The position numbers and the translations under genes are program-made. From Candidatus Aenigmatarchaeota archaeon (GTDB taxonomy: Archaea > Aenigmatarchaeota > Aenigmatarchaeia > CG10238-14), in NCBI GenBank assembly GCA_038999265.1, contig JAWAAR010000004.1:1-36424 (forward strand): a stretch of 36,424 bases of DNA, read 5' to 3'. Below the pieces are notes generated by a model. It was not told the DNA's origin. It saw only the letters and a program-made list of their open reading frames with translations, and made no database searches. Shown here piece after piece: positions 780 through 20,019 of the stretch. The stretch's first letter is position 1. The number at the start of each line of letters is the position of its first letter.

Positions 780-2414
780 TCATTTCACTGTTTTATTTAT
801 TTGTTCTTTTAAATATTTAATTTCTTCCTTTAATTGTATGATTTCTTGATGCTGTTTTTTCAATTCCTCCAAAAGCAATATACTCAATTTTTCATAATTT
901 ACATTACTTACGTTTCCATTATTATCACGAATCACTAATTCTGGTATGACTTCAAAAGTGTCCTCTGCAATTAAACCAAATTGTCTACCTCCACCAATAT
1001 CTTCACCTAAATGTTTATATTCGGGTTTAAAATCAAAAGACACAGGTTTAAGTTCATATATTTTAGTAGTGTTTATTTCCAAGTATGTGATATTTTCTTT
1101 GAATTTTTTTGAACTTCCCGACGCATAAATTATTCCATCAACATATAGTTTGTAAGAACCTGGATTTGTTGTCCCGATGCCGACGTTGCCGGAAGTTCCA
1201 TTCACAAATAAAAAAGAATGTGTTGAGTTGCTGACATTCAAGAGTGAACCTGTCCCGGTTATGTGAAGTTTGGCTAAAGGAGATGTTGTACCTATACCAA
1301 CCCTATCATTACTTGAATCAACATACAAAGTATTTGTGTCAACAGTCAATGCACCCACGGTCAACCTATCTGTTGAAGTAGAATAGGTTATTCCTGCATC
1401 ACCACATTGAACTGCTGAACCATCTCCATAGCAGACATAGGTGTTTGTTACAGTGCCGACTTGAGGATCTGATTCTGTTTGGAGAAATGCTGTGCAGGTA
1501 GGTGTGTCACCTAATGCAGTAATTGCTTGTCCGCTTGAACAGGCAGATGGATATGCAGTCAAGTTTTGCCAGCCAAGGCCGATATCAGGAGCAAGATCAA
1601 TTGCTGATATTGATCTATCAACTATCTTTGCAGAGTTAACAGAATTACTTGCAAGGTTGGCATTGCCAACAGTTCCAGTAAGATTTCCACCAACTAGAAC
1701 TGCTTGGATTTGTGCAGTTGTGTTGTACCAGCTTGATAGTGGGACTAGACTTGATTCATCTATTTCTGTTCCTCCGATACAGTTGGTGCATTGAAGGTCA
1801 CCTGCAGTCAAAGATGTAGCAGTTCCAGTCAAACCAGTACCGGCACCATAATAAGCACCTGTTATATTTATATTACCAACCACATGTAAAGTGGAATTTG
1901 GAGATGTTGTACCTATACCAACCCTATCATTACTTGAATCAACATACAAAGTATTTGTGTCAACAGTCAATGCACCCACGGTCAACCTATCTGTTGAAGT
2001 AGAATAGGTTATTCCTGCGTCACCACATTGAACTGCTGAACCATCTCCATAGCAGACATAGGTGTTTGTTACAGTGCCGACTTTAGGATCTGATTCTGTT
2101 TGGAGAAATGCTGTGCAGGTAGGTGTGTCACCTAATGCAGTAATTGCTTGTCCGCTTGAACAGGCAGATGGATAATTGCTTAGTCTAACCCACGGTACAT
2201 CACCTCCCTGTAATACACCAGTCCAATAAACATCCCCAGAAACATGCAAAGGATAGAGTGGGGTTATCAAACCAACACCTACATAACCAGTATTACCATT
2301 AACAATAAAGTAGGTTTGCCCCTCATTAGAGACATTCCTGACTATAAAACTCTTTGCCTGAATCAAGGGTAAAAGGTATAACAGGAAAACAAGAGTCATG
2401 AATGCCTTTCTCAT
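780..2414 (-). CDS. Tail-fibre-like surface protein with C-terminal peptidase S74 chaperone domain
   Basis: The protein has a signal peptide (MRKAFMTLVFLLYLLPLIQA), a long Gly/Ser/Thr/Asn-rich body with motifs such as NTGYVGVGLITP and DRVGIGTTSP, and a C-terminal S74 intramolecular chaperone domain over roughly the last 110 residues. That domain shows SSKKFKENI, a LKPVSFDFKPEY strand and FGLIAED, and ends in a Lys/Glu coiled coil. In phage tail spikes this domain trimerises beta-structured fibres and then cuts itself off at a Ser; the Ser is present here, but followed by Lys rather than the usual Asp. The body contains a near-perfect internal duplication. The ATG at 2414 overlaps the HepT stop as ATGA and leaves a clean signal peptide; a GTG at 2420 is possible. 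It is probably a secreted trimeric fibre or adhesin, with a viral origin possible. Confidence 0.82.
   Translation of the reverse strand: MRKAFMTLVFLLYLLPLIQAKSFIVRNVSNEGQTYFIVNGNTGYVGVGLITPLYPLHVSGDVYWTGVLQGGDVPWVRLSNYPSACSSGQAITALGDTPTCTAFLQTESDPKVGTVTNTYVCYGDGSAVQCGDAGITYSTSTDRLTVGALTVDTNTLYVDSSNDRVGIGTTSPNSTLHVVGNINITGAYYGAGTGLTGTATSLTAGDLQCTNCIGGTEIDESSLVPLSSWYNTTAQIQAVLVGGNLTGTVGNANLASNSVNSAKIVDRSISAIDLAPDIGLGWQNLTAYPSACSSGQAITALGDTPTCTAFLQTESDPQVGTVTNTYVCYGDGSAVQCGDAGITYSTSTDRLTVGALTVDTNTLYVDSSNDRVGIGTTSPLAKLHITGTGSLLNVSNSTHSFLFVNGTSGNVGIGTTNPGSYKLYVDGIIYASGSSKKFKENITYLEINTTKIYELKPVSFDFKPEYKHLGEDIGGGRQFGLIAEDTFEVIPELVIRDNNGNVSNVNYEKLSILLLEELKKQHQEIIQLKEEIKYLKEQINKTVK
1279..1553. repeat. 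275-bp internal direct repeat, copy 2 of surface protein
   Basis: This stretch matches 1900-2174 at the same length, 621 bp away, with only about two differences noticed (for example GCATCACC against GCGTCACC). It encodes a module from YPSACSSGQAITALGD through DRVGIGTTSP of the S74-domain protein. Near-identity at silent sites implies recent duplication or gene conversion. Confidence 0.9.
1900..2174. repeat. 275-bp internal direct repeat, copy 1 of surface protein
   Basis: This is the partner of 1279-1553 within the same gene and the more N-terminal copy on the minus strand. The DNA breakpoints are sharp on both sides: flanking sequence diverges at once, giving NSTLHV after this copy and LAKLHI after the other. 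Confidence 0.9.
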
Positions 2415-2752
2415 TCCCACCCCCTCAAGATCTTTTCTATCTCTTTTTTAAGTTTTGGTAAATCAAGTTCTATAAGATTCCAAACTCTTTCTAAATTTAC
2501 CCCAAAATAACTATGAATCAATATATCTCTTGTTCCAGAGATTTTTTTCCATTCAACTTGAGGATGCTCTTCTCTAAATCCTTTTGAAAGATTTTTAACT
2601 GCCTCTCCTATTATTTCAAGCCTCCTTATTATTGAATCTTGAATTTGGGGGTTTTCAAGAAATTTTTTCCTATTAATACCTCTTTTATATTCTTCTATCC
2701 TCTCAATAGATTCTAAAATATCTTTTAGATAAACCGTTTCATCTCTTTTCAT
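2411..2752 (-). CDS. hepT: HepT-like HEPN RNase toxin (module 1)
   Basis: This 113-residue all-helical protein of the HEPN/DUF86 (HepT) family carries the diagnostic R-x4-H-x-Y motif in GTRDILIHSYFGV. HepT toxins are RNases whose active site is silenced when the partner MntA nucleotidyltransferase AMPylates the motif Tyr. The RRLEIIGEA segment and the LPKLKKEIEKIL tail are shared with the second HepT at 3143-3481, so the two are paralogs. Its start overlaps the 3' end of the cognate MntA by 14 nt, and its stop overlaps the start of the S74 fibre gene, so it is embedded in a larger translationally coupled operon. The product assignment is firm; the function in this organism is inferred. Confidence 0.9.
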   Translation of the reverse strand: MKRDETVYLKDILESIERIEEYKRGINRKKFLENPQIQDSIIRRLEIIGEAVKNLSKGFREEHPQVEWKKISGTRDILIHSYFGVNLERVWNLIELDLPKLKKEIEKILRGWE

Positions 2753-3068
2753 ATATCCTCACTTCCTCATTCAAGATCCTATCTTTCAAGAATGGATGGA
2801 TAAACGAATACTCCCCCAAATCTACTTTTTTTTCTAGCACTTTCTCTAGTTCAATTTTCAATCCAGCCATCTCAAACAAGCTCATTCTCTTTGGAAGCTC
2901 AACTAAAATATCAATATCACTTCTCTTTTTTGCTTCTCCCCTAACCACGCTTCCAAATAACCCAGCCTTTTTCACCTTGTATTTTTTAAGGATTGGCAAT
3001 ATCTTTCTCTTTATCTCTTCTAAATCATTTTTTATTTTTTCATTCTCAATTCTCGTAGATTTTGGCAC
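2739..3068 (-). CDS. mntA: MntA-type minimal nucleotidyltransferase antitoxin (module 1)
   Basis: This 109-residue protein has the MNT catalytic signature GS-x10-D-x-D, visible as GSVVRGEAKKRSDIDILV. MntA antitoxins AMPylate the HepT toxin encoded next to them. The start is GTG, as in the paralog at 3468-3797. The first about 56 residues are identical to that paralog at protein and DNA level, while the C-terminal half (from KRMSLFEM to VDLGEYSFIHPFLKD) is clearly different, the pattern expected if the toxin-facing half was exchanged by recombination. It overlaps hepT by 14 nt. Confidence 0.9.
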   Translation of the reverse strand: MPKSTRIENEKIKNDLEEIKRKILPILKKYKVKKAGLFGSVVRGEAKKRSDIDILVELPKRMSLFEMAGLKIELEKVLEKKVDLGEYSFIHPFLKDRILNEEVRIYEKR

Positions 3069-3093
3069 TTATACCACCATTTGAAGATTGTGG
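2908..3093. repeat. 186-bp direct repeat, copy A (duplicated MntA 5' half)
   Basis: This repeat appears identical to 3637-3822, displaced by 729 bp. It covers the 5' half of mntA plus 25 bp upstream. The upstream 25 bp correspond to the last codons of the gene at 3798-4319 (HNLQMVV and stop), here left as a non-coding scar, which shows the direction of the tandem duplication. Confidence 0.9.
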
Positions 3094-3142
3094 AATATTG
3101 AATTAAAATCAACCAAGGGTACGAAACTATGAATATTCTTTT

Positions 3143-3481
3143 TCATACGACTTCCCCTAAAATCTTTTCTATCTCTTTTTTAAGTTTTGGTAAATCCACT
3201 TTTATTATTTCCCAAGTTAATTCAAGGTCAACCCCAAAGTAGTTGTGGATGAGTTTATCCCTAGTTCCAGCAATTTCTTTCCATGGGACCGATGAATATT
3301 TTTGCTTTAGTCTATTGGAAATATTCTTCGCAGCCTCTCCTATTATTTCAAGCCTCCTTAAATTTGCATCTTGCTTCTCTCTATCTTTAAGGAAATCCTG
3401 TTTTTTGACATTTAATAAAGATTGCTGGATTAGTGAGATGTTTTCAAGTATATGCCTCAAAAATATTTCATCTCTTTTCAT
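3143..3481 (-). CDS. hepT: HepT-like HEPN RNase toxin (module 2)
   Basis: This second HEPN/DUF86 protein has 112 residues and R-x4-H-x-Y in GTRDKLIHNYFGV. It is related to the module 1 toxin (RRLEIIGEAAKN and LPKLKKEIEKIL are shared) but diverged elsewhere, so the duplication is old here while the adjoining mntA 5' halves remain identical. Its ATG overlaps the end of its MntA partner by 14 nt, the same arrangement as module 1. A RNase toxin controlled by AMPylation is expected from the family. A 74-nt gap with the duplicated scar separates it from module 1. Confidence 0.9.
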   Translation of the reverse strand: MKRDEIFLRHILENISLIQQSLLNVKKQDFLKDREKQDANLRRLEIIGEAAKNISNRLKQKYSSVPWKEIAGTRDKLIHNYFGVDLELTWEIIKVDLPKLKKEIEKILGEVV

Positions 3482-3797
3482 ATATTCTTACCTCTTCTCT
3501 TAAAATTGTATCCTTAAGTAATGGGTGAATCGACTTGTAGGTTAAAAGATCAACCTTTCTTCCTAACTTGTTTTTTAACTTGATTTCCAAATTAATCAAA
3601 TCCAGCAAGCTTTTGCCTTCAGGAAGATCTACTAGTATATCAATATCACTTCTCTTTTTTGCTTCTCCCCTAACCACGCTTCCAAATAACCCAGCCTTTT
3701 TCACCTTGTATTTTTTAAGGATTGGCAATATCTTTCTCTTTATCTCTTCTAAATCATTTTTTATTTTTTCATTCTCAATTCTCGTAGATTTTGGCAC
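3468..3797 (-). CDS. mntA: MntA-type minimal nucleotidyltransferase antitoxin (module 2)
   Basis: This 109-residue MNT-fold nucleotidyltransferase has GS-x10-D-x-D (GSVVRGEAKKRSDIDILV). The GTG start follows the TAA of the upstream gene with no spacer, so translation is probably coupled. The N-terminal half is identical to module 1, while the C-terminal half (PEGKSLLDLINLEIKLKN onward) is different and includes VDLLTYKSIHPLLKD, more like canonical family members. By family knowledge it AMPylates and neutralises the HepT encoded at 3143-3481. Confidence 0.9.
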   Translation of the reverse strand: MPKSTRIENEKIKNDLEEIKRKILPILKKYKVKKAGLFGSVVRGEAKKRSDIDILVDLPEGKSLLDLINLEIKLKNKLGRKVDLLTYKSIHPLLKDTILREEVRIYEKR

Positions 3798-3822
3798 TTA
3801 TACCACCATTTGAAGATTGTGG
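3637..3822. repeat. 186-bp direct repeat, copy B (MntA 5' half)
   Basis: Partner of 2908-3093. Here the upstream edge is still the functional 3' end of the preceding gene, so this copy looks like the parental location. Confidence 0.9.
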
Positions 3823-4319
3823 GATATTATATCTTGAAGTTTGGATAAATTTAATTTATTATTTTTCATCATCAAATCCATCCACTTGCTTTCAATAATA
3901 GAACATTTGATTTCTGGGATTGAGAATATTTTTGCTTTATTCGCTTTCATCCAATATTGATAAATTTTTTGAGATAATCTGTTTTTTTCATGACATTCTG
4001 AAAAATATTTTTTAAAAATTCTATTAACCAATTTATTATTTATAACTCCTTTATTATAAAAAATTCTTAAAATGCTTCTAAGTGGAGATGGCATAAAATT
4101 TTTTTTATTAAATTCACGATCATATTTAGGATACCGTCTTAAATTTGAGAGTGACATTTCTACTTTACCAGAAATTAATTTTTTTGGTCCAAATGTTTTT
4201 TTATTATTCAACTCTGTAATTGAATCCATATTTGAAAAATTTATGAAAATATGTTTTTTGTGAGCCTCGAAAAGATAAACTCTTTTTAATATTTTCATTT
4301 CTTTATCTTTGATTTTCAT
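3798..4319 (-). CDS. Hypothetical protein between intein-bearing fibre gene and TA modules
   Basis: This protein of about 173 residues is not recognised. It is basic, rich in Lys, Asn and Ile, has no signal peptide or membrane helix, and is probably cytoplasmic and mostly helical (for example SPLRSILRIFYNKGV and RLSQKIYQYWMKANK). The best start is the ATG at 4319, six nt after a GGTG that overlaps the end of the upstream fibre gene; a GTG at 4328 or ATG at 4325 are alternatives. It sits in the same coupled operon as the surface protein and the MntA/HepT modules. The last seven codons were copied into the scar between modules. It could be a degenerate accessory or viral gene. Confidence 0.55.
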   Translation of the reverse strand: MKIKDKEMKILKRVYLFEAHKKHIFINFSNMDSITELNNKKTFGPKKLISGKVEMSLSNLRRYPKYDREFNKKNFMPSPLRSILRIFYNKGVINNKLVNRIFKKYFSECHEKNRLSQKIYQYWMKANKAKIFSIPEIKCSIIESKWMDLMMKNNKLNLSKLQDIISHNLQMVV

Positions 4320-4324
4320 ATTCA

Positions 4325-6835
4325 TCACCCTAAATTAATTATCACATCACCATTGGTATCAATAGTAAATGTTGTTGAACTGCTTGTAACTTTAATTGAG
4401 CCAGACACCTCCAATTTATTAGTAGGATAGCTTGTCCCGATGCCGACGTTGCCGGAAGTTTCATTGACAAACAAATCATCAGTAACATTCAAAGATAGTC
4501 CATCAGTTCCAGAACCCTGAATTTCTACTTTGGCCATTGGTGATGTTGTCCCGATGCCGACGTTGCCATAAATATAGGTATTGTGAGCAAGAATATCATT
4601 ACCAATAAAGTTATGGGTGTCCTCGACTTCTATGTCATACACATGTTCTTCACCAACTGATTCTATTTTTACAACTTTAGCCCAGATAAAATCTACATCC
4701 TTTTCTAACCATATGTCTTTTGGAGATCCCTTGGGATATAGCAAGGGTGAGAAAGCTTTATATACTTGCAATTTATAATTACTATTTGGTAACGGTACCC
4801 CAGTTTCTAATTCTGGGGCGTCTTCTACTACATTTCTAATATTTTCAAAATAAACATGCTGGAGTTGTCTTATCTCCCATGCCATATTCTTCTTGAATCC
4901 CATGAAAAGCACTTTTTTACCTTTAGCAATAATATTTCTTGCTAGAGATACATAATCACTATCTCCACTCAATATTATCACAACATCTGATTTTTCCAAA
5001 CTAGATAGCACATCAATTGTAATTTCAGTATCAACACCTCCTTTTTTTATTACACCATCACCATCATTAATGTATTTCAAATGTTTTTTCTTGAAAGTAA
5101 GTATAGAACCAAATTTTTCTTCCAATTTATCTAGGTAATTTTTTGTTTTTAAAAATGAACTGTCTCTTGTACTTGGTATGGCTATGTGGTAATTCATGAA
5201 GACGACATCAAAAACTTCTTCAAGAAAATCTTTAAATTTCTTATAATTAATTTTCCATCCAGCCTTCCTCTGGGCATAGAACATGTTAGCGTCATCTATA
5301 AATATAGCAACCCTCGGTTTTGTAACTGCAATGTAATCTCCTATATTTATTTGGTCTGTTCTTAGCCAGCCTGCGTTTTTTATGTCTGATTTATGTTTTA
5401 TTTTTCTATTACCGGGATTCAACACAAGATAAGGATGAGTTGCTGTTGTTTCTATAGATCTACCATCTTCTGTAACTATCCTATATACTGGTTTTATTCC
5501 CATGTCTATGAGTTTTTTAACTCTTCTCCAAACTATTTTTCCTGTTGCCTCATCTAGGCTTGCTATTTCATCTCCTTCTTTTATGTCTTTTATTTTAACT
5601 TCTTCATAATCATCAGATTTTTTCTTTTTTCTTCTTAGTTTGGTGTCCCCCGATACACAAAGGCCATCATTTCTTACTGAAAAAATTTGTGTTCCACTTG
5701 ATTGGTTTATTATTAAAGCGTTTGCCGATGAATCTGATGTAGAAGCAATGATGTTTAGTCTTGCTGAAGGTGAAGTTGTGCCTATACCAATTTTATTTTG
5801 ATATTGATAAATAACAGAATCATTTAAAGTATTGGTTGCATTCCACATTGCCAAATAGCCTGAACTACCAGATCCATATAGATTGCCACCACCCCCAACA
5901 TCTATACATACCAGTGTGTCACCAATAGCTTGAACTGCTTGACCAACACCACAACCTTCTGGATAGTTATCAATTGTGGTCCAATCACCTCTTGAAACAT
6001 ATTTGTTAGATAGTGATGAGCCACCTTCATAGATTGTTCCTGTAGCATTTAGATCACCATTAACAAAAAACCCCGTATTTGATTTTATTACACTATCCTC
6101 AACATAAAAATAATAATTGGTCTGCATACAACCGATACCAGTATTGCAAATACCTGGATATGTATAACCACCTTTGACTCCATAAGGAGCTTCAATAGTT
6201 CCATTAAATCTCAATACATCGATAATATATGTGTATCCAGAATATGTTAAGTTTCCGTGAGTGAGTATGTTTCCATAATTGTCTATTGTTAGACCTCCAG
6301 ATTCATATCCTCCAAGTATATTCAACTGATTTCCATATAAAATTCCTGTTGAATTTATGTCCCCTATTACCTCAAATTTTTTTACAGGCGAACTTGTCCC
6401 AATTCCAACTTTAACATTATCAGTATTGTTGTACAAATATTCACCAGATAAAACCCATCCAGAAGGTGTTGAGACCTGAGACCATGATGTTATACAATCG
6501 CCTGCAATACACAACCCACTTCCCCTAACATAGCCTGATGATACTACACACCCCGTATTAGAGGATTCTGCACAAATCCCACCTATAACATGAAGAGTAG
6601 AGGAGGGTGAAGTTGTGGCAACGCCTATTTTACCTGAACTGTCAACCCAAAGCACTGAACCAGCACTCAAGTTTTGTATAACTGTAAGATTGTTTGGGAA
6701 AATATAATTTCCACCCTCAAAAGTTCCTGATGAAATTGATTCTGCTAAGTGCCCAGGATCAGAAGATCTTACATTAGCTATAAACAACATAATTAAAATA
6801 ATTAAAATTATTGTTATTTTTTCCCCTTTAAACAT
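4325..6835 (-). CDS. Tail-fibre/adhesin-like surface protein interrupted by a NYN-domain intein
   Basis: An 836-residue precursor. Residues 1-24 form a signal peptide or anchor (hydrophobic ILIILIMLFIA). The extein is a Gly/Asn/Ser/Thr-rich beta-structured chain with repeated KVGIGTSSP, KIGIGTTSP and NVGIGTTSP motifs, the same family as the S74 protein downstream but without an S74 domain at its C-terminus (it ends DTNGDVIINLG). Residues 393-752 are an intein: removing it joins SVRNDGL to TYIYGNVGIGTTSP, a normal module. The mature protein would be about 476 residues. It is the first gene of a minus-strand operon reaching about 464. Secretion is expected, which raises the question of splicing before export. 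Confidence 0.85.
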   Translation of the reverse strand: MFKGEKITIILIILIMLFIANVRSSDPGHLAESISSGTFEGGNYIFPNNLTVIQNLSAGSVLWVDSSGKIGVATTSPSSTLHVIGGICAESSNTGCVVSSGYVRGSGLCIAGDCITSWSQVSTPSGWVLSGEYLYNNTDNVKVGIGTSSPVKKFEVIGDINSTGILYGNQLNILGGYESGGLTIDNYGNILTHGNLTYSGYTYIIDVLRFNGTIEAPYGVKGGYTYPGICNTGIGCMQTNYYFYVEDSVIKSNTGFFVNGDLNATGTIYEGGSSLSNKYVSRGDWTTIDNYPEGCGVGQAVQAIGDTLVCIDVGGGGNLYGSGSSGYLAMWNATNTLNDSVIYQYQNKIGIGTTSPSARLNIIASTSDSSANALIINQSSGTQIFSVRNDGLCVSGDTKLRRKKKKSDDYEEVKIKDIKEGDEIASLDEATGKIVWRRVKKLIDMGIKPVYRIVTEDGRSIETTATHPYLVLNPGNRKIKHKSDIKNAGWLRTDQINIGDYIAVTKPRVAIFIDDANMFYAQRKAGWKINYKKFKDFLEEVFDVVFMNYHIAIPSTRDSSFLKTKNYLDKLEEKFGSILTFKKKHLKYINDGDGVIKKGGVDTEITIDVLSSLEKSDVVIILSGDSDYVSLARNIIAKGKKVLFMGFKKNMAWEIRQLQHVYFENIRNVVEDAPELETGVPLPNSNYKLQVYKAFSPLLYPKGSPKDIWLEKDVDFIWAKVVKIESVGEEHVYDIEVEDTHNFIGNDILAHNTYIYGNVGIGTTSPMAKVEIQGSGTDGLSLNVTDDLFVNETSGNVGIGTSYPTNKLEVSGSIKVTSSSTTFTIDTNGDVIINLG
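4580..5659 (-). other. Intein with inserted NYN/LabA-like nuclease domain (360 residues)
   Basis: Splicing blocks are complete: Cys1 in CVSGDTKL (block A), TTATHPYLV (block B, T-x2-H), YDIEVEDTHNFIGN (block F), LAHN (block G), and Thr as the +1 extein residue. No LAGLIDADG motif is present. Between the two Hint halves lies a NYN domain at about intein residues 115-283 (nt 4811-5317). Its motifs are FIDDANMF, KGGVDTEITIDVL and SGDSDYVSLA, with acidic residues D122/D123, D210, D233 and D235 in the positions expected for the PIN-like metal site of LabA/NYN_1 proteins. Inference: this is a nuclease-bearing intein in which a PIN-fold enzyme replaces the usual homing endonuclease. Whether it cuts DNA for homing or RNA cannot be read from sequence. 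Confidence 0.93.
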
Positions 6836-17658: not shown

Positions 17659-20019
17659 TCATTCCAACTCTATTTCCACCCTCTCCTTACCAGCCCCTAT
17701 ATTTTTCCTCTTTAATTTTATCAGACCTATTTCAGAAGTATTTCTTACATGTGTTCCCCCACAAGGCATATTCCAATCTCCACACTTCCACCATCTTTTT
17801 CCCTCAACTTTATTATCATCTTCTGTCCTTATTTCCAATTTCCTGGAAATTACTGAATTTACCTCTTCCTCCAATTCTTTTATTATTGGTGTCAATGGTT
17901 TATCATACAATATATCTATCCTAGCCTTGTCTGAACTTACATTTGAACCTATAACAGTTGGGTTTCCAGTCTTCTCAATAAGCGGATAATAAACTATATG
18001 TGCAGCCGAATGAAGTTTCATGATTCTATATCTCCTTTCCCAATCCAATTTTAATTCAACCTCATTACCTATCGAAAATGTTGGCTCAACTTCAAGGACG
18101 TGAACTATTTTACCATTTTCCTTTTTGACATCCACAACCCTGATACCATCAATTGTCCCGGTATCTGATGCCTGCCCACCAGAAAAGGCAAAAAATATTG
18201 TTCTATCAAGGACAACTTCTCTCCCCTTTATTTCAAGTACCTTTGATTTACACTCCCTTAAATAAGGATCCTTGTAAAACAACTCCACAGTTTCAACATC
18301 CTCAAAATCATCCTGTTTTTCTTTTAAATTTATATCATCCTTATTAAAACCACTACTTTTTATTTTATTTACCAACTCAAACAACAAATCAGCACAAATT
18401 TCACCACCAGCAACAGGCATCTCCAATCCCCATCTCTCCAACACAATTGGGTTTATTTCCCCAAACCTTGCAAGAACTTTACCGTCAACCAAAAACTTTG
18501 CTGCTCTGCCTTTAATATAGCAAGGAGCGGATGATTCCTCTATCCTGTAATTATCAATTCCAAGATTAGATAGTATACTTTCAAAAACTGATTTTATTTC
18601 TGAAAAGTTTGTCCTTGAATGGCAAAGTGTGATAGCCAGCCTTTTCATGGTTCTTCCTTCCTCACCATCCAAAACAAAAACATCCCCAACCTCAAACAAG
18701 TTTTGGGGATAATCATTGTGTTTATTTCTTGAAAGAACCTCCAGCAAACTTGGTAACAACCAACTCCTGACCACATTATATTCTGACGTTTTTGCATTCT
18801 CTGTCTCAGCTACTTTCCTTTCCTCCATATTCATTTTTTTAAATAGGTTGGACTTGTTTGTCAAAATAAATGTAACAACCTCTTGAAACCCATATCCAAC
18901 TAAAAGAGATCTCAGACGGTTTGCTAAAATTTCCTTCTCATCTTCCTCTCCTATGGTTGAGATGTTTGGTATTTCCGGTTCAAATTTCTGGTAACCATAG
19001 GCGATTGCCACATCCTCTACTATATCCATTGGATGCATTATGTCTGCCCTATAGCATGGAACTAAAACTTCTATCCTTTCCTTTCCTATCTCCTCAGCAT
19101 CATGGCCCATCATCTTCAGGTATTCAATAATTTCCTTATTTGAGAGTTTGAGTCCTAGAAGTTTGTTAACATAGTTTGGGTTAATTTGGATTGATGATGG
19201 GGATAGGTTTGGGGTATAGATGATTTCATTTCCATACTTTATCTTTATCTTATGTATTTTTGCACCTCTTTCAGCAAATGTTGTTACAATTATATTTAGA
19301 ACCTCATTTGCTGCCTTCTCATCTGTAGCTGTTATATCAACAAAAATATCTTTTGTTGTTTCATCGATCTTGGTATCCTCTGAATTTATTATTGGAGGCA
19401 TAGACAGGACTCTACCCCTCGCATCATGTAAAATTGGGTATTCATCCATACCTTCCAATATCCATGAATACTCCTTGCCTTTGGGATGTTTCTCAAGTAT
19501 CTCTTCCAATGTCATCTTTTCCTTTTGGTCTAGTGGAACAAAACTGAAATTCTTTGGTTTAGTTGTGTAAATAACCGGAAATATTATTTTTTTGTAGTCA
19601 TGAAGTCCGATTGCAACCTTCTTTCTTTTTCTGCAGTGGGTGAGATGGAGTTTCTCCTGAAGTTGCATTACTGATCTGATAAAGTCATCTGTGAATTTTA
19701 CATTCTTTATTATACATGAAACAAAATATGGCCTTACCTTTGCTACTTTATCCTCTATTATAACCATTTCCTCAGAAGCCTCTATCTTGTATCTTCTTAA
19801 CCCTGTCTTGACACCCATATATGAGGAGAAGGCCCTGGCTATTCCTTCAACTGAAAGCATATCTGGTCTGTTTGGGAAGACTTCCACATCAAATGTATCT
19901 CCATGAACACCTTCCCAACCAACACCCATCATAGGAATATTTTCTTCTATTTCTCTCATCGTGAATTCCTTTCCAACCAATTGGCAGAAATCTTTTCTAT
20001 CTATTGTTATCACAGCCAT
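17659..20019 (-). CDS. pheT: Phenylalanyl-tRNA synthetase beta subunit fused to AlaX-type editing domain
   Basis: A 786-residue protein. Residues 1-about 545 are an archaeal PheT: N-terminal DVEVFPNRPDMLSVEGIAR, the B3/B4 editing region, B5 with CYRADIMHPMDIVEDVAIAY, and the pseudo-catalytic domain to FELVNKIKSSG. Standard archaeal PheT stops there. After an acidic linker, residues about 557-786 are a full AlaX/AlaRS-editing domain: ELFYKDPYLRE, LDRTIFFAFSGGQASDTG, Zn-ligand motif KLHSAAHIVYY (HxxxH) and CGGTHVRNTSEIG (C-x3-H). The frame is continuous with no internal start needed. PheT pairs with PheS to charge tRNA-Phe. AlaX deacylates mischarged Ser/Gly-tRNA-Ala, so the fusion is unexpected. 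It starts directly after the pheS stop. Confidence 0.95.
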   Translation of the reverse strand: MAVITIDRKDFCQLVGKEFTMREIEENIPMMGVGWEGVHGDTFDVEVFPNRPDMLSVEGIARAFSSYMGVKTGLRRYKIEASEEMVIIEDKVAKVRPYFVSCIIKNVKFTDDFIRSVMQLQEKLHLTHCRKRKKVAIGLHDYKKIIFPVIYTTKPKNFSFVPLDQKEKMTLEEILEKHPKGKEYSWILEGMDEYPILHDARGRVLSMPPIINSEDTKIDETTKDIFVDITATDEKAANEVLNIIVTTFAERGAKIHKIKIKYGNEIIYTPNLSPSSIQINPNYVNKLLGLKLSNKEIIEYLKMMGHDAEEIGKERIEVLVPCYRADIMHPMDIVEDVAIAYGYQKFEPEIPNISTIGEEDEKEILANRLRSLLVGYGFQEVVTFILTNKSNLFKKMNMEERKVAETENAKTSEYNVVRSWLLPSLLEVLSRNKHNDYPQNLFEVGDVFVLDGEEGRTMKRLAITLCHSRTNFSEIKSVFESILSNLGIDNYRIEESSAPCYIKGRAAKFLVDGKVLARFGEINPIVLERWGLEMPVAGGEICADLLFELVNKIKSSGFNKDDINLKEKQDDFEDVETVELFYKDPYLRECKSKVLEIKGREVVLDRTIFFAFSGGQASDTGTIDGIRVVDVKKENGKIVHVLEVEPTFSIGNEVELKLDWERRYRIMKLHSAAHIVYYPLIEKTGNPTVIGSNVSSDKARIDILYDKPLTPIIKELEEEVNSVISRKLEIRTEDDNKVEGKRWWKCGDWNMPCGGTHVRNTSEIGLIKLKRKNIGAGKERVEIELE

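Follow-up and report, generated by a model that had tools for sequence, protein, structure and literature searches.

Inteins are regarded as selfish elements that owe their spread to a small number of homing enzymes, which cut DNA and are nested at one conserved loop. In fractured genes, split inteins have a free-standing endonuclease gene between their halves. According to a published review, the homing families comprise HNH, His-Cys box, GIY-YIG and LAGLIDADG enzymes (PMC7765530), and homing endonuclease domains nested in inteins all use one conserved site (PMC6801210). The archaeal intein described here shared the Hint splicing fold, the Cys1/His-Asn/+1 nucleophile set and a nuclease nested in Hint with class-1 inteins carrying LAGLIDADG or HNH enzymes, but its nuclease was of the NYN type and its host was a repeat-rich fibre protein, not a conserved replication or metabolic enzyme. 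With the standalone NYN/LabA/DUF88 proteins (2qip VPA0982; Pfam NYN) it had the fold and the four conserved aspartates in common, whereas here the NYN was nested in an intein; intein NYNs fell into separate clades, in this case an intein-only one. Polymorphic toxins with PT-HINT resembled it in their surface-type host protein, their Hint domain and the toxin-type cargo found in the intein family, but the cargo of our intein was internal to a complete splicing element and did not follow an autoproteolytic Hint at the C-terminus.

The gene was located in the window (the whole stretch of 36,424 nucleotides that was analysed) from Candidatus Aenigmatarchaeota archaeon. Extein, intein and NYN together formed a single open frame with zero stops, and the boundaries proposed by the sequence-only reading (intein aa 1-360, ORF residues 393-752) were exact (Table 1). 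All three Hint profiles exceeded their cut-offs: Intein_splicing PF14890 (89.9 bits against 35.8; E 1e-26 to 1.9e-25), TIGR01443 intein_Cterm (32.4 bits against 15.6; E 7.2e-8) and TIGR01445 intein_Nterm (29.7 bits against 24.5; E 9.8e-7). The splicing blocks noticed earlier were all found, namely C1, TTxxHPY, D342 and H349 of block F, H359-N360 and the +1 Thr. In an alignment of 31 related inteins, the window's included, T71, T72, H75, D342, H349, H359 and N360 were invariant (31/31). With a Hint domain above the curated cut-offs and a full set of splicing residues, the insert was a complete class-1-type intein that should be splice-competent as judged by its residues, and we infer splicing of the precursor from these intact active sites. 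The GC content of the intein (32.5%, against 34.0% for the window) was uninformative on transfer.

The nested domain had been recognized from FIDDANMF, SGDSDY and four spaced aspartates as an NYN nuclease replacing LAGLIDADG or HNH, and both parts of this claim held. Pfam NYN (PF01936) matched with 62.6 bits against a cut-off of 24.2 (E 2e-17 to 7.7e-17), D122, D210, D233 and D235 were almost invariant when the domain was aligned with standalone NYNs, and Pfam detected neither LAGLIDADG nor HNH in the window's intein or its 30 relatives (0/31). Structure prediction, which might have failed to return a PIN fold, instead gave a confident alpha/beta fold: AlphaFold2, with standalone NYN rows as the alignment, modelled the NYN region at pLDDT ~95, and the sole PDB match with E < 1e-3 in Foldseek was the NYN/DUF88-type protein 2qip (VPA0982; E 9.2e-10, TM 0.74 of target), which was also the best PDB chain for the NYN part by sequence. 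The N-terminal Hint half was modelled fairly well except for residues 70-111. The C-terminal half had no usable alignment rows and was of low confidence, so its Hint identity rested on the HMMs. The cargo was accordingly assigned to the NYN (PIN-like) family and, having intact catalytic residues, was a predicted nuclease; activity of the Hint-NYN protein would be expected from its intact active site.

Table 1. Positions of the intein-bearing gene and its parts in the window, and of two kinds of cargo in related loci
Feature	Position	Strand	Evidence
Whole ORF, 836 aa: hydrophobic N-terminal segment, VGIGTTSP-repeat fibre-like extein, intein, C-extein	4325..6835	-	
N-extein, fibre-like repeats, ending ...QIFSVRNDGL	5660..6835	-	
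Intein, 360 aa, Cys1 to His-Asn (ORF residues 393-752)	4580..5659	-	PF14890, TIGR01443, TIGR01445
N-terminal Hint half, aa 1-112: Cys1, TTATHPYL block B, ...GDYIAV strand	5324..5659	-	A2 profile match 1.9e-35
NYN (PIN-like) nuclease domain, intein aa 116-265	4865..5314	-	PF01936; AF2; Foldseek 2qip
NYN motif 1, FIDDANMF (D122, N125)	5279..5302	-	
NYN D210 within KKGGVDTEI	5030..5032	-	
NYN motif 3, SGDSDY (D233, D235)	4952..4969	-	
Linker from NYN to C-terminal Hint half, aa 266-320; model confidence partly low	4700..4864	-	AlphaFold2
C-terminal Hint half: block F VYDIEVEDTHNF, block G ILAHN	4580..4699	-	TIGR01443 7.2e-8
+1 Thr, C-extein start TYIYGNVGIGTTSP	4577..4579	-	
C-extein remainder	4328..4576	-	Sequence; extein relatives in same archaeal family
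VDQS cargo, DIEYxG and GKxSxAH-like motifs	L204:6926-7903, L204:8192-9205, L251:978-1991		
DUF433-DUF5615 antitoxin/PIN-like toxin-type pairs	L210:5247-5669, L210:1118-1492, with adjacent DUF433 ORFs; also L262	+ (L210)	

Further Hint-NYN-Hint architectures, which the sequence-only reading had proposed to look for, were found in Patescibacteria (CPR). We searched 380 genomes of this phylum and then scanned two of its classes with an N-terminal Hint profile that recovered more examples, a sampling that was not exhaustive; the CPR membership of the relatives was based on the phylum search around G159, the genome of a Ca. Curtissbacteria locus. Nine more in-frame Hint-NYN-Hint inteins came from eight Patescibacteria genomes (L204#1, L205#2, L206, L248#3, L249#1, L249#2, L252, L254 and L266), and the idea that the window's intein was unique was thereby ruled out. 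Among 31 contiguous fibre inteins compared, counting the window's, Pfam matched Intein_splicing in 31 and NYN in 10, and the four NYN aspartates were retained in all 10. The CPR hosts were the same VGIGTTSP-repeat fibre proteins, with inteins at corresponding sites. Much of the family had similar extein sites, VGIGTTxP...LHVxG[QEH] before Cys1 and TY[IL]xG after HN, giving the junction pattern ...LHVxG[QEH]|C..N|TY[IL]xG, and a single fibre gene could hold several inteins at corresponding repeats. Intein-free alleles, also suggested as a check, were looked for as well: fibre-like extein relatives without intein were present in the same archaeal family, and the junction-pattern search returned no exact intein-free allele. 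No Hint-NYN relative was detected in IMG/VR (single-sequence scan) or in phage and plasmid records (tblastn), which contained distant Hint or NYN pieces only; the best 80 matches of an NYN-alignment scan of genome contigs were standalone or otherwise fused NYNs, and none of 80 viral Hint loci had an NYN. One IMG/VR contig classed as viral (L268) matched a fibre protein of G532 including its DUF3800-type intein; either viruses carry genes of this kind or viral classifiers are misled by them. The CPR fibre proteins of L204 (4475 onward), L205 and L206 started with a domain of the DNA-binding type (phage-integrase SAM-like, MerR-like or HTH_17), and an apparent membrane segment lay between it and the fibre repeats.

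The nuclease did not always occupy the same position. In the window, L205#2 and L266 it followed the W..l..GxxIAV strand, which is the usual endonuclease position that the sequence-only reading had given. This placement was correct for the window, where the NYN followed GDYIAV, but not for the other 7 of the 10 NYN inteins. There it came directly after block B (HPYL/HPYF) and ahead of the W.KV..L..G..IA strand. Thus, in comparison to LAGLIDADG and HNH inteins with their one conserved site (PMC6801210), most of the NYN relatives used a second insertion loop, and the shifted position may reflect independent insertion or relocation.

The content of the slot was exchanged between closely similar inteins. 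The N-terminal Hint halves of L249#1 and L252 shared 81%, while their inserts shared 30%; for L249#2 and L252 the C-terminal Hint ends shared 92% and the inserts 32%, and for L248#1 and L248#3 the Hint halves shared 82 and 84% and the inserts 30%. L249#1, L249#2 and L252 were located at matching fibre sites, and the L252 NYN belonged to another clade than both L249 NYNs. In other inteins this slot was filled differently. L204#2, L204#3 and L251 contained an in-frame VDQS cargo that had no Pfam match and looked RNase H-like by appearance only, and the cargo of L204#4 showed a weak DUF3800 match (0.0053) below the Pfam cut-off. In L210 (twice) and L262, genes for DUF433 (1.7e-25 to 2.7e-22) and PIN-like DUF5615 (1.3e-15 to 3e-13) ran antisense to an open intein frame. 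ParE/RelE-type ORFs were likewise antisense in L260#2 (4.4e-9), L256 (2.8e-6) and, at a sub-threshold Pfam score, L265 (0.0028), and the small ORFs beside them could be candidate antitoxins. Five loci (L212, L213, L253, L264 and L267) resembled fractured genes in having an N-half ORF, nuclease ORF(s) and a C-half ORF. They differed from them in that a PD-(D/E)XK-like ORF (just over the Pfam cut-off in L212 and L213, called by similarity in the other three), sometimes with an NYN ORF, lay between the halves and that the hosts were fibre genes, whereas the window's intein was contiguous. NYN ORFs were found between the halves of L213 (a free NYN, 5.8e-21) and L264 (a copy that was apparently frame-broken). 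The PD-(D/E)XK-like ORFs of the split inteins had a zinc ribbon, and several of these loci contained an extra helical-looking ORF of 130-190 aa. Inteins without other cargo (L208, L209, L211, L259, L260, L205 and L270) had antisense ORFs of ~40-90 aa, each with an apparent single hydrophobic segment; they could encode small membrane proteins or have arisen by chance. The endonuclease slot of this fibre-intein family is an exchangeable cargo bay that was recurrently refilled, its alternative contents being toxin genes and other nucleases, a picture that the sequence-only reading had not anticipated. Therefore, cargo for element persistence in general was favoured over a specific homing enzyme.

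In a tree of 115 intein and non-intein NYNs, the intein label had to change at least four times, and well-supported branches forced every one of these changes. The window's NYN belonged to a five-member intein-only clade (98/81) with those of the CPR loci L204, L252, L248 and L254, and the sister of this clade was a standalone NYN from a Shapirobacteria genome (L024); the NYNs of the window's archaeal relatives had other positions in the tree. For Hint, a tree nested the window among the CPR fibre inteins beside L205 and L266 (96/90), so that the NYN and Hint histories differed in detail. Since both the NYN clade and the Hint position were CPR-bound and no other Hint-NYN architecture occurred among 156 genomes of the window's phylum, the data suggest a transfer from CPR bacteria to the window's archaeon, which provided the one archaeal example of an NYN intein. 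The locus was not a stray bacterial contig, because fibre relatives lacking the intein were found in the same archaeal family and the window neighbours included archaeal-type GAPDH and PheT. Between L205#2 and L266, a CPR pair outside the window's NYN clade, dN was 0.098 and dS 1.31, the latter so high that the NYN ratio of 0.075 (0.081 for the N-terminal Hint half) was approximate; in this pair the NYN was clearly under purifying selection.

The source assembly was a draft of 0.79 Mb in 54 contigs (97.5% complete), and the intein-borne NYN was the only one in the genome. Two further inteins were present, in a Top6A-like protein and a CDC48/VCP-type AAA protein, and by eye alone their long inserts look like ordinary LAGLIDADG-type endonucleases. 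The downstream ORF 3798-4328 had no convincing family match.

Considering all of this, it is probable that the window contained a splice-competent fibre intein whose swappable cargo slot held an intact NYN, a nuclease freed by splicing and serving the persistence of the element. The hosts of the family would be repeat-rich fibre proteins, from CPR bacteria and from one DPANN archaeon. The precursor would splice itself by attack of Cys1, transfer to Thr+1 and cyclisation of Asn, and since this chemistry should excise Hint-NYN cleanly, an intact fibre protein and a free Hint-NYN protein would both be expected. The freed protein would act as a metal-dependent nuclease with RNA as the most likely substrate, and most likely serve element persistence. 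As to its precise role, toxin-like or addiction cargo could be proposed tentatively; an unorthodox homing or mobility nuclease seemed unlikely, and so did a function useful to the host, as an RNase, against viruses or in competition. A persistence or toxin-like role was slightly favoured over homing because sister slots held toxin-antitoxin-type genes and a PD-(D/E)XK-like ORF accompanied NYN in split forms. The coupling of RNA cleavage to splicing and the regulatory role raised by the sequence-only reading were hypothetical. On the other hand, no antitoxin was seen inside the window's intein, which weakened the classical addiction reading. A wider proposal, in which the slot of CPR/DPANN surface-fibre inteins is a swappable bay for toxic nucleases and these inteins persist by addiction or toxicity instead of homing and have crossed between bacteria and archaea, remained somewhat doubtful; it would cover the in-frame NYN, RNase H-like and DUF3800-like domains as well as the antisense DUF433-DUF5615 or ParE genes.

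The strongest alternative was that the NYN truly replaced the homing endonuclease, nicking or cutting intein-free fibre-repeat DNA so that recombination copied the intein in. The NYN occupied the homing-endonuclease slot and retained its catalytic residues, another nuclease (the PD-(D/E)XK-like ORF) filled this slot in split relatives, several inteins per gene were found at corresponding repeat sites, and the same archaeal family had related fibre proteins without intein. Nevertheless, we considered this rather unlikely. The NYN proteins characterised so far are RNases, KHNYN among them (PMC12709174), which weakened a DNA-homing reading; no DNA-recognition module was seen, the NYN would be redundant in L213 and L264 where it co-occurred with the PD-(D/E)XK-like ORF, and the antisense toxin genes of sister inteins cannot home. 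It was improbable that the fibre exported or presented Hint-NYN against neighbouring cells in the manner of a polymorphic toxin, even though the exteins were surface-fibre-like with N-terminal hydrophobic or membrane segments, Pfam PT-HINT (pretoxin Hint) matched 13 of the 31 inteins, and toxin-type genes (ParE, PIN-like DUF5615) occurred in sister inteins. The NYN was internal to Hint and not C-terminal, with C-extein repeats downstream; given the full splicing chemistry, with HN and Thr+1 conserved, the intein should be excised cleanly and probably before the protein is exported; an adjacent immunity gene was not identified, and the antisense sister toxin genes were not part of the fibre protein. 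Finally, an NYN misjoined to Hint by assembly, or a dead insert, was exceedingly improbable despite the 54-contig draft and the single such locus in the phylum sample: the architecture recurred in nine CPR relatives from eight other genomes, along with a matching clade of intein-resident NYNs, which effectively excluded the chimera raised by the sequence-only reading, and the uninterrupted frame, the complete active site and the dN/dS of the relative pair argued against decay.

The earlier statement that no described intein class had this enzyme agreed with our search, since neither an intein or Hint domain carrying an NYN nor a Patescibacteria intein, with toxin-antitoxin genes or in general, was found described in the open-licence literature. 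The enzyme nested in this intein was thus of a new class, and the cargo-swapping family of the intein had apparently not been described before. If true, a family that swaps its homing enzyme for PIN-like nucleases or antisense toxin genes would represent a second route to intein persistence and an exception to the rule that nested domains use one site. The fibre inteins also offer naturally tested positions for large intein cargo, and the intein was common to CPR bacteria and a DPANN archaeon, both groups of tiny, mostly symbiotic cells.

Three other features of the window were observed, all on the minus strand. Close to the intein gene, positions 780-2420 encoded a second VGIGTTSP-repeat fibre-like protein with a C-terminal Peptidase_S74 chaperone domain. 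Two tandem MNT-HepT-type pairs were located at 2411-3797, and their MNT copies were identical in the first half and divergent after it. At 17659-20019, one ORF combined an archaeal PheRS beta subunit (aa 1-544) with an AlaXM-like tRNA editing domain (aa 578-733).
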